From Geodermatophilus sp. DSM 44513 (GTDB lineage Bacteria; Actinomycetota; Actinomycetes; Mycobacteriales; Geodermatophilaceae): DNA of 64,000 nt. The position numbers and the translations under genes are program-made. Shown here one piece after another: positions 45,066-48,204 of this stretch (positions are counted from its first letter, which is position 1; each line of letters starts with the position of its first letter). Below the pieces are notes generated by a model that saw nothing but the letters and a program-made list of their open reading frames with translations, made no database searches and was not told where the DNA came from. Location of the stretch: assembly GCF_032460525.1 (NCBI RefSeq), contig NZ_CP135963.1:2294001-2358000 (forward strand), written 5' to 3'.

Positions 45066-46256
45066 TCAGGCCGCCCCGGTCACGGGGGCGTCCCAGTCGA
45101 CGTGGTGCGCGCGGACCCAGGACTGCGGGTCGCGCCCGCGGCGCAGCAGCACCGGCATCACCAGGTCGCGGACCACCCGGCCGACCGGCGGGGGCGACTT
45201 GGCGCTGCTCACCCCGAAACCCTGGGCGACGACCCGCTCGACCCGCGCCCGGCGCAGCCGCTCGAACGCCGTGAACGCCTCCGGCACCGGCAGGTCGCGC
45301 AGGCAGCGGGCGAGGACGACGGCGTCCTCGATGGCCAGGGAGGACCCCTGACCGGAGGCCGGCGAGGTGGCGTGCACCGCGTCCCCGATGAGCACCGTGC
45401 GCCCGCGGTGCCAGCGCGCCACGCGGGGCACGTCGTGGGTCGCCCAGCCGCGCAGCGGGCCGGGGGTGGCCTCGACCAGGGCCACCGCCGGGGACCGGTC
45501 GTCGCGGTGGAGCTCGTGCAGGCGGCGGCGCCACTCGGCGTCGGAGATCCCGGCGACCTCGGCCGGCGCCGGCTCCCGGGACACCGGCGGGTTGGCGAAC
45601 CACCAGGTGCCGCCCGACGGCGCGCGCAGGTAACCGAAGAAGGCCCGCCGGCCGAAGACCATGGTCAGCCGGCCGACCTCGGCGCCGGGCGGCACGTGCT
45701 CGGAGACGCCGGCGGTGTTGAGCACCGGGACGAAGCGGGGCGGCGGGGCGGCGGGGTCCACCAGCCCGCGGACGGCGGAGCGGACGCCGTCGGCGCCGAC
45801 GAGCACGTCGGCGGTGTCGGTGCTGCCGTCGGCGAACACCGCGGTCACGCCGTCCCCGGTGTCGTGCACGTCGACCAGCCGGGCGCCGTAGCGGAGGTCC
45901 AGGCCGCGCCGCAGGGCCTCCTCGTGCAGCGCCCGGTACAGGTCGGCGCGCCGCAGGGACAACCCGACCGTGCGGGCCGGGGGCGGGCCGGTCGCCGACA
46001 GCTCGCCGAGCACCCGGCCGGTCCCGCTGCGGAACTCGATGACCGGCGTCGGGAAGCCCACGTCGCGGACCGCCTGCTCGGCGCCGATCGCCCGCAGCGC
46101 GTCCAGGCCGTTGACCTGCACGCCCAGCCACGCGCCGACGTCGTCGACCGCGGCCGGCCGCATCTCGTGCACGGTCGCCTCGATCCCCGCCCGCTGCAGC
46201 GCCATGGCCGCCACCGGCCCGGCCACCCCGCCGCCGACGACCAGCGCTCGCCTCAT
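45066..46256 (-). CDS. FAD-dependent monooxygenase (PHBH fold)
   Basis: This 396-residue flavoprotein has the FAD dinucleotide motif VVGGGVAGPVAAMAL, the DG motif DVLVGADGVRSAVR and the second FAD motif VLIGDAVHATSPASGQG, as in salicylate- and p-hydroxybenzoate-hydroxylase-like enzymes. Its ATG overlaps the stop of the UGSC selenoprotein gene (ATGA), tying it to the selenoprotein operon. It probably hydroxylates a small aromatic or cyclic compound with NAD(P)H and O2. Confidence 0.9.
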   Translation of the reverse strand: MRRALVVGGGVAGPVAAMALQRAGIEATVHEMRPAAVDDVGAWLGVQVNGLDALRAIGAEQAVRDVGFPTPVIEFRSGTGRVLGELSATGPPPARTVGLSLRRADLYRALHEEALRRGLDLRYGARLVDVHDTGDGVTAVFADGSTDTADVLVGADGVRSAVRGLVDPAAPPPRFVPVLNTAGVSEHVPPGAEVGRLTMVFGRRAFFGYLRAPSGGTWWFANPPVSREPAPAEVAGISDAEWRRRLHELHRDDRSPAVALVEATPGPLRGWATHDVPRVARWHRGRTVLIGDAVHATSPASGQGSSLAIEDAVVLARCLRDLPVPEAFTAFERLRRARVERVVAQGFGVSSAKSPPPVGRVVRDLVMPVLLRRGRDPQSWVRAHHVDWDAPVTGAA

Positions 46257-46813
46257 CCCGCCGTCCTCCCCCTCCGGTCCTCCCCTGTCGCACCGGGTGG
46301 CGCGGCGGTCACCGCGGCCACCACCGCGGGGTGCACCCGCTCGGCGACCGCCCGCAGCTCGGCGTCCGTGCGGTCCTGCACCGGGTGCGGCACCAGCACG
46401 TGCGGGGCCGGGAAGCCCAGCGCGGCGCCCTGCACGCGGGCGGCCTCGGCGAACGCCTCGCTGGCGAGGAAGACCCCCACCACGCCGCGGCGCTCCAGGT
46501 CGGCGATGTCGTGCACACTGCACGACGTGCAGGAGCCCTAGTCGGCCAGCGCCTCGACGACCACCTCGCACTGCTCGGTGATCCGCTGCCGCAGGTCCAG
46601 CGGCGCGACCCGGGCGAAGGTCGGCTTGCGGTAGCGCAGCACGGTGGCGCCGTCCGCGGCGAGCAGCTCGGCTAGCCGGTCCAGGACGACGTCGCCGCGG
46701 GCCTTGCCGATGTCCAGCAGGCCCACGGTGCGCCCCCGCAGCGACGGCGGGCGCGGCAGTGGCGCGCGCTCCGGCGGCTGCCGCTCGCCGGTCGGATCGA
46801 GGACCGTGGTCAC
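46253..46813 (-). CDS. UGSC-family selenoprotein with UAG as selenocysteine codon
   Basis: Read with TAG at 46538-46540 (codon 92) as selenocysteine, the gene encodes a 186-residue protein. The N-terminal half has VGLLDIGKARGDVVLDRLAE and ends EVVVEALAD; after the TAG comes GSCTSCSVHDIADLERRG and then AAALGFPAPHVLVPHPVQ. The stop therefore stands exactly at the U of the family's UGSC motif. The flanking halves are in the same frame and protein-like, so this is not ordinary decay. The GTG start overlaps the stop of the thioredoxin-fusion gene and the TGA stop overlaps the monooxygenase ATG. A perfect hairpin follows the TAG. Sec insertion at UAG is known in Geodermatophilus and Blastococcus. 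Confidence 0.88.
46508..46526 (-). promoter_or_regulatory. Putative bacterial SECIS element of the UGSC gene
   Basis: In the mRNA sense, GUCGUGCA and UGCACGAC form a perfect 8-bp stem closed by a GUG loop. The stem begins 11 bases after the UAG codon and the loop lies 20-22 bases after it, within the range known for bacterial SECIS elements, with a G in the loop as required for SelB binding. Confidence 0.7.
46538..46540 (-). other. In-frame UAG, selenocysteine codon (UGSC motif)
   Basis: TAG (CTA on the plus strand) occupies the U position of the UGSC motif, codon 92 of the gene. Confidence 0.85.
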
Positions 46814-48204
46814 ACCCGCACCTCCCGTGTCACCGGGACGCTCCCGGTCTCCCCGGCGACCCACCCGCCGACGATCGCACTGAACAGGCCGGCGTCACCA
46901 CCGGCGTGGGCCACCAGCAGGCCCCCGGGCCGGAACTTCGGCACGCCGCCGTCGCCGACCCCGGGCGGCAGGCCCTCGGCCATGCCGCCGGCCCCCCGCA
47001 CCAGCTCGCCGGCCGGCAGCCGCAGCAGCCCGTCCAGCTCGGTCAGCAGCCGGGCGCGGTCCCAGCCGGCCTCCCGCAGCACCCGGCCGTGCTCCGGGGA
47101 GACCACGAGCAGCGCGTCGAAGGCCATCGGCAGCTTGGGGTGGGCGTTGACCCGCAGGCAGGCGGCGAAGGTGCGGGCCAGGGACTCCGGGTCCCGGCTG
47201 AGCTGGTCGACCACCGGCTGCACACCGGAGCCGGCGACCACGGTGACCGCGTCGCCGGGCACCCCGCGGTCGGCGGCCAGCGGCGCGAAGGGGCTGTCCT
47301 CCTCGCGCTCGGCGAAGCAGAACGTGTACTTGCCCGGGTTGCCGAGGGTGGCGCGGTCCACCTCGCCGGGTCGCCCGCCGCCGACGTTGCGCACCACCAG
47401 CTGCAGCGCCCGGCCGATGGTGGCGTTGGCCCGGTTGCCCTGGCCGAGGGCGTTGACGCCGCTGTTCATCCCGATCCGCCGGGCGACCGGCCCGTTCACC
47501 ACGACGACGGGGCCGGCGAAGTAGGTGGTGGCCAGCAGCCCGTGCAGCGCGAACTCCTCGGCGCAGGCCGCCTCCACCGCGGCCAGCACGACCGGCAGGT
47601 GCTCGGGCCGGCAGCCGGCCAGCACCGCGTTGACCGCGACCTTCTCCACGGTGCACGGCACCAGGTCCGGCGGGACGACGGCGACCACCTCACCCGGGTC
47701 GCGCGACGTGCCGCGCAGCATGCGCACCACCCGCTCCGGGGTCGGGGGGACGACCGGCAGCCCGTCGGTCCAGCCGCGGTCGAACAGCGCCTCGTGCTCG
47801 TCCTCCAGCTCGGCCAGCTGCACCCGCCGGCTGGCCAGCCGGCCGCCGTGGCGGGCCTCCAGCGCGTCGGCGCGGGACGGGTCCACCGACAGCGACCCGC
47901 AGCCGGGCCGGTGCTCGGGCAGCCCCGCGCCCAGCCCGGGCACACCGGTCAGCTCCGCCCAGCGCTCCCGGCTCCAGCCGACCGTGCGCGCGGTCTCCCG
48001 GCCGCCGGCCACCCGCAGCAGGGTCGGCACCGTCTCCACGCCGAGTGACCAGGACAGCTCCAGGGAGGTGTCGTCGCCGTCGAACCAGGCGGGGTCGTCC
48101 TGGCACCACACCGCGGCGCCGAGCTCGCGGAGCACCGGCTCGACCAGCACGCACGTCGGGCAGTCCCGCTTGACGACGGCGACCAGCCCGTCCGGCAGCT
48201 GCAC
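46810..48204 (-). CDS. Thioredoxin-domain fusion protein, partner of UGSC selenoprotein
   Basis: This 464-residue protein begins with a thioredoxin-like domain (about 1-90) whose CxxC is at 15-18 (KRDCPTCVLVEP). A larger domain of unrecognised fold follows from about residue 145 (RGWTDGLPVVPPTPERV, ALGQGNRANATIGRALQL, GNPGKYTFCFAERE). Members of this arrangement are found next to UGSC genes. The GTG at 48204 lies 7 bases after a TAGGGT -10 (48217-48212), so the mRNA is leaderless. The stop overlaps the GTG of the UGSC gene. It may deliver electrons to the selenoprotein; that role is inferred. Confidence 0.8.
   Translation of the reverse strand: MQLPDGLVAVVKRDCPTCVLVEPVLRELGAAVWCQDDPAWFDGDDTSLELSWSLGVETVPTLLRVAGGRETARTVGWSRERWAELTGVPGLGAGLPEHRPGCGSLSVDPSRADALEARHGGRLASRRVQLAELEDEHEALFDRGWTDGLPVVPPTPERVVRMLRGTSRDPGEVVAVVPPDLVPCTVEKVAVNAVLAGCRPEHLPVVLAAVEAACAEEFALHGLLATTYFAGPVVVVNGPVARRIGMNSGVNALGQGNRANATIGRALQLVVRNVGGGRPGEVDRATLGNPGKYTFCFAEREEDSPFAPLAADRGVPGDAVTVVAGSGVQPVVDQLSRDPESLARTFAACLRVNAHPKLPMAFDALLVVSPEHGRVLREAGWDRARLLTELDGLLRLPAGELVRGAGGMAEGLPPGVGDGGVPKFRPGGLLVAHAGGDAGLFSAIVGGWVAGETGSVPVTREVRV

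Follow-up and report, generated by a model that had tools for sequence, protein, structure and literature searches.

Mukai and co-workers are said to have obtained, in 2016, 75Se evidence for UAG-directed selenocysteine (Sec) in Geodermatophilus and Blastococcus. The use of UAG for Sec in some bacteria is restated in extracts of PMC10778597 and PMC8124441. The available passages of PMC5330540 describe tRNA-Sec(CUA) in three Geodermatophilaceae genomes, credit the UAG-coded formate dehydrogenase and the UGSC-motif selenoproteins of this family to their ref. 56 (Mukai 2016), and add a UAG-coded Sec-AhpC in Blastococcus saxobsidens DD2. The UGSC selenoprotein family itself, in which UGA is normally the Sec codon, was described from ocean metagenomes in PMC2398784. 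As far as excerpts of the published accounts go, the genome analysed here resembles the system of Mukai et al. 2016 in its bacterial family, its tRNA-Sec(CUA), and its UAG-coded formate dehydrogenase and UGSC genes, and differs from it in the particular genome and gene only. To the same extent, a survey of 112 genomes, the covariation of a hairpin, the three UGSC paralogues in a single genome and the UCA-using genera g5, g6 and g7 are additions. The gene of interest shares with the UGSC family (NF041046, PF24696; excerpts of PMC2398784) its profile match, the UGSC motif and perhaps a conserved neighbouring domain, but carries UAG in place of UGA. With the Sec-AhpC of Blastococcus saxobsidens DD2, as outlined in PMC5330540, it shares codon, tRNA and SECIS logic, although the protein family is another one. 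A preceding sequence-only reading of the locus had stated that UAG-directed Sec was known in this group, which is right in substance according to the same passages; it overlooked that such decoding occurs across the family and that UGSC proteins coded by UAG had already been published. A UAG-coded UGSC protein is known biology, to which this gene adds one more case.

The analysed stretch of 64,000 nucleotides, hereafter the window, covers positions 2294001-2358000 in the genome of a soil bacterium of the Geodermatophilus group, which consists of one contig of 4,628,844 bases (4.63 Mb). The features of the locus, in window coordinates, are as follows.

46253..46813, minus strand: predicted gene for a selenoprotein of the UGSC family; 186 codons, beginning with GTG and ended by TGA; codon 92 is the Sec site
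46538..46540, minus strand: in-frame TAG, putatively read as selenocysteine
46508..46526, minus strand: SECIS-like hairpin, 8-bp stem, GTG triloop, beginning 11 nt past the TAG
46810..48204, minus strand: upstream partner gene, thioredoxin-like N-terminus (CPTC) and an unnamed domain of about 330 aa; start placed after a 464-aa database entry
45066..46256, minus strand: downstream overlapping FAD-dependent monooxygenase gene (PF01494)

From 46894 down to its TGA (46253-46255), the minus-strand frame has the TAG at 46538-46540 as its sole interruption, and it reads ...ALAD-(TAG)-GSCTSCSVHD around it. With a GC content of 77.7%, an open frame by itself is weak evidence. Each half, however, has its own match to the UGSC profile, and the two matches are contiguous (profile positions 2-68 with 50.8 bits, 69-146 with 70.5 bits), which confirms the previously noted frame broken by one TAG. 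When the TAG is read as C, the whole protein passes the cut-offs of both family profiles: NF041046, 'UGSC family (seleno)protein', with 137.8 bits (125 required), and PF24696 with 145.4 bits (25 required). The TAG sits exactly at the U of the U-G-S-C motif, followed by GSC, and with the same substitution positions 92 (the TAG) and 95 are invariant among 28 aligned sequences. The GTG start at 46813 overlaps the stop of the upstream gene (GTGA) and the stop overlaps the ATG of the monooxygenase gene (ATGA); these overlaps suggest that it stands in the middle of an operon.

The genome contains a single tRNA-Sec above the Rfam cut-off, at 1413449-1413540, with the anticodon CTA; six weaker matches all fall below the cut-off. 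The genes selA (415 bits) and selB (285 bits) lie directly downstream of this tRNA and selD (1412493-1413401) just upstream. TAG also stands at the U of UGSC in two other genes of that family (2945727-2946134 and 2969831-2970262), and a formate dehydrogenase gene near 354108 has TAG at its Sec site (NQARI-(TAG)-HSATVPGL); a hairpin with GGTCT in its loop comes after it. These components support the earlier proposal of a reassigned Sec codon in the UGSC gene. The proposal withstood the refutation check set with it, for a UCA-type tRNA-Sec alone or missing Sec machinery. Another TAG, inside an RF2-like match, was set aside, as its frame suggests the gene's own terminal stop.

A CUA anticodon is also what a pyrrolysine tRNA would carry, and ARAGORN labels the tRNA at 1413449-1413540 'tRNA-Pyl'. 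The covariance model, however, identifies it as tRNA-Sec with 64.2 bits, selA, selB and selD adjoin it, and homologues of the UGSC protein have Cys at the site. A profile search of the genome did not find pyrrolysyl-tRNA synthetase: the best PylS match reached 23 bits, far below the cut-off of 178, and matches of this kind occur in 12 control genomes as well, with one control genome exceeding the cut-off. Barring an unrecognised PylRS, decoding of the UAG as pyrrolysine is thus of negligible probability.

The stretch past the TAG holds a candidate SECIS element. Over 36 bases from the codon onwards, we compared 71 TAG-bearing genes, which represent 18 distinct sequences, with 17 Cys homologues. 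The six inner pairs of the stem are formed in 18/18 distinct TAG sequences versus 1/17 Cys homologues, and the two outer pairs in half of the TAG sequences (9/18). Three stem pairs differ on both sides between UGSC subfamilies, that is, by compensatory changes. In the hairpin alignment, 126 of 144 cells are paired, and sliding the partner strand lowers this value to 37-70 of 144. Furthermore, the codons are nearly frozen: over codons +4 to +10, mean synonymous diversity among 36 orthologues falls to 0.022, from 0.209 upstream, and is back at 0.271 downstream. The loop Ser codon at +7 is AGT in all 71 TAG genes and in 0/17 Cys homologues; AGT accounts for 3 of the 283 Ser codons in 16 crude open reading frames of the window. 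The 72nd TAG gene, from genome G057, has the same hairpin bases. A complete 8-bp stem appears in 183 of 20000 synonymous recodings. Folding energy was dropped as SECIS evidence: that of the post-TAG stretch is unexceptional, with 358 of 2000 synonymous recodings equally stable. In minimum-energy folds of 51 bases, the named hairpin is absent from some sequences, the window's own included. The argument for a putative SECIS is carried by the pairing pattern and the codon freezing, and judged by sequence and covariation a likely bacterial SECIS hairpin lies just past the UAG.

To place the gene within its family, 112 Geodermatophilaceae genomes were surveyed. UGSC matches were found in 54 of them, and the 95 matches listed comprise 72 with exactly one TAG, 23 that are stop-free, and none with TGA or TAA. 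We read 91 of the 95, the remaining four being stop-free. In every TAG-bearing gene read (72/72, from several genera) the TAG stands at the U of UGSC; among the 19 stop-free matches read, 18 have Cys at this position and one lacks the motif. The comparison with homologues that the sequence-only reading had called for thus yielded no TGA among the matches listed, with Cys in 18 of the 19 stop-free ones read. In some genomes (L083 in G087 and L084 in G055), UGSC genes of the Cys type occur in pairs, separated by a few kilobases, along with UAG-type paralogues elsewhere.

This distribution bears on another reading, in which the TAG merely ends translation, making the gene a pseudogene or the source of a truncated protein. 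Release factor 1 (RF1) is present in the genome, and TAG does end one of the 27 crude open reading frames in the window. Such a reading is highly improbable, since the TAG keeps one position in 72/72 genes from several genera, the protein is strongly conserved downstream of it, and the hairpin is conserved too. Because RF1 is present, UAG also acts as a stop, and part of the UGSC product may be truncated.

Suppression of the UAG by Cys or Ser instead of Sec, for example at selenium limitation, would be in keeping with the existence of Cys homologues and with the fact that tRNA-Sec is initially charged with serine. The intact selA, selB and selD genes and the hairpin would be expected for Sec only, and we regard suppression of this kind as very unlikely.

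We conclude with high confidence, on genomic evidence, that the product of the gene is very probably a redox selenoprotein of the UGSC family, with UAG as the codon for its active-site selenocysteine, by the following mechanism. The tRNA-Sec(CUA) would be charged with serine, which SelA would convert into Sec on the tRNA, using selenophosphate supplied by SelD. SelB would deliver the Sec-tRNA to the ribosome on binding the hairpin just past the UAG. At hairpin-bearing UAGs this delivery would beat RF1, and hairpin-less UAGs would go on terminating. The parts are encoded in the genome and the conservation pattern is as described above; charging, SelB binding and Sec incorporation are suggested by homology.

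The sequence-only reading had proposed searching the genome for a CUA-type tRNA-Sec, and the outcome extends from this genome, in which the only tRNA-Sec above the Rfam cut-off has CTA with selA and selB adjoining and selD just upstream, to the family. tRNA-Sec was found in 108/112 Geodermatophilaceae genomes (110 matches, 102 with the anticodon CTA and eight with TCA): 100 genomes have the CUA form only, seven the UCA form only, and one has both. Seven genomes within the genera g5, g6 and g7 have TCA copies and lack a CTA copy; in genome G059, TCA is a second copy. Within the seven UCA-only genomes, UGSC matches were found solely in G066 and G072 and all are stop-free, and a search of all seven for the TIGR01553 formate dehydrogenase at E up to 1e-60 found none. 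Loci L040-L045 and L048 of these genera come from fragmented assemblies with tRNA-Sec(UCA), in which no TAG-bearing UGSC gene was found. At the same threshold, TIGR01553 formate dehydrogenase was found in 100/112 genomes of the family, and among the listed matches every stop is TAG except one in G079. That apparently UGA-coded gene (L148, G079:C12) was rejected: its Sec region is deleted and its TGA stems from a broken frame, so that it is no UGA-Sec gene. In a SelB tree, 14 CUA genomes form one side of a branch with 100/100 support versus six SelB sequences of g5-g7. Five of these six belong to genomes with the UCA form; the sixth is that of G067, where no tRNA-Sec was found. Genera g5-g7 mark the unswitched side of the change from UGA to UAG, and one codon switch within Geodermatophilaceae is the simplest history.

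Outside the family, a CUA tRNA-Sec pattern applied to a sample of the order matched 52/63 family genomes, missing 11/63 in a scan that is not exhaustive, and 1/285 others. The single non-family match (G280) is false, as the covariance model finds no tRNA-Sec there. In a scan of a named genome collection, 85 stretches matched the pattern and 80 were listed; 16 of these 80 have titles naming none of the genera that we presume to constitute Geodermatophilaceae, and were checked by ARAGORN. A CUA tRNA was present solely in L232, from a 'Frankiales' metagenome-assembled genome, and Rfam, run on 11 of the 16, gave concordant results. L232 was discarded as an outsider: its contig measures 21,059 bases, the same length as G061:C320 of the window's genus group.

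The partner domain of about 330 aa stands beside UGSC in 85/87 loci and the FAD monooxygenase adjoins UGSC in one of 87 other loci, both within the limited flanks searched. No Pfam or NCBIfam profile matches the upstream partner protein; its thioredoxin-like assignment comes from the CPTC motif, recognised by eye, and from relatives named 'thioredoxin family protein' in databases. In the UGSC subfamily with the motif U-GSCSSWSLHD (L072, L086-L089), two partner-domain stretches follow, not one. An extract of PMC2398784 mentions UGSC fused to a domain called Unknown_1, and the partner domain may be this Unknown_1. Fold prediction yields a Rossmann/flavodoxin-like arrangement, with the Sec located where a strand gives way to a helix. 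On this model, the UGSC protein probably presents a Sec/Cys pair at a helix start of a Rossmann/flavodoxin-like fold, with an adjacent thioredoxin-like partner, and we infer that the Sec/Cys redox centre would exchange electrons with that partner.

The genome with both tRNAs, G059, which we take to be Geodermatophilus sp. LHW52908 (its contig C11, 86,783 bases, agrees with NZ_QVQH01000019.1 in length and tRNA position), has its tRNA-Sec(CUA) beside its only selB above the cut-off and carries TAG in UGSC and formate dehydrogenase genes. Its second tRNA-Sec (C17:1173-1263, 81.8 bits) has the anticodon TCA. Beside this tRNA and divergent from it lies a gene (C17:1579-2151) for an AhpD-like protein that reads CFY-(TGA)-M, the two together forming locus L131:1169-2151 (G059:C17:1169-2151). 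The protein's match to TIGR01926 reaches 112.5 bits, above the cut-off of 81.8, and that to NF041238, 'AhpD_rel_CFYUT', 51.7 bits, below the cut-off of 175; a hairpin with an AGTTT loop lies past the TGA. Among 73 genomes in which this protein has any match, TGA occurs in G059 only, the rest having stop-free paralogues of 30-40% identity. Frames around the tRNA-Sec(UCA) resemble transposases by eye, and it lies in the low-GC end of C17, where 5-kb means are 64-74% GC in the first 25 kb and 73-79% beyond. A gene at the far end of C17 occurs in 13/13 genus genomes searched and shares 83% identity with its counterpart in the window genome, which assigns the contig to the genus; a mis-join within C17 is possible. 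SelA and SelB are not known to read the anticodon, so that acquiring a single tRNA gene could be enough to give a cell a second Sec codon. We tentatively raise the possibility, at somewhat less than an even chance, that genomes of the UAG-Sec clade can run two Sec codons at once and that G059 acquired a cassette of tRNA-Sec(UCA) and UGA-coded AhpD-like gene. No dual-Sec-codon genome of this sort was found in the literature at the level of titles and abstract openings. If true, such a relative would allow direct tests of how one Sec codon gives way to another.

The window genome is a clean single-contig example of a Sec codon moved from UGA to UAG; according to the survey, this switch took place within one family, Geodermatophilaceae. 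UAG-Sec genes are easily overlooked, as the stop cuts the frame and the tRNA is labelled as that of pyrrolysine. Since TGA ends 25 of the 27 crude open reading frames in this 78%-GC window, a rare UAG for Sec would reduce competition with termination, which offers an explanation of the codon switch that can be tested.
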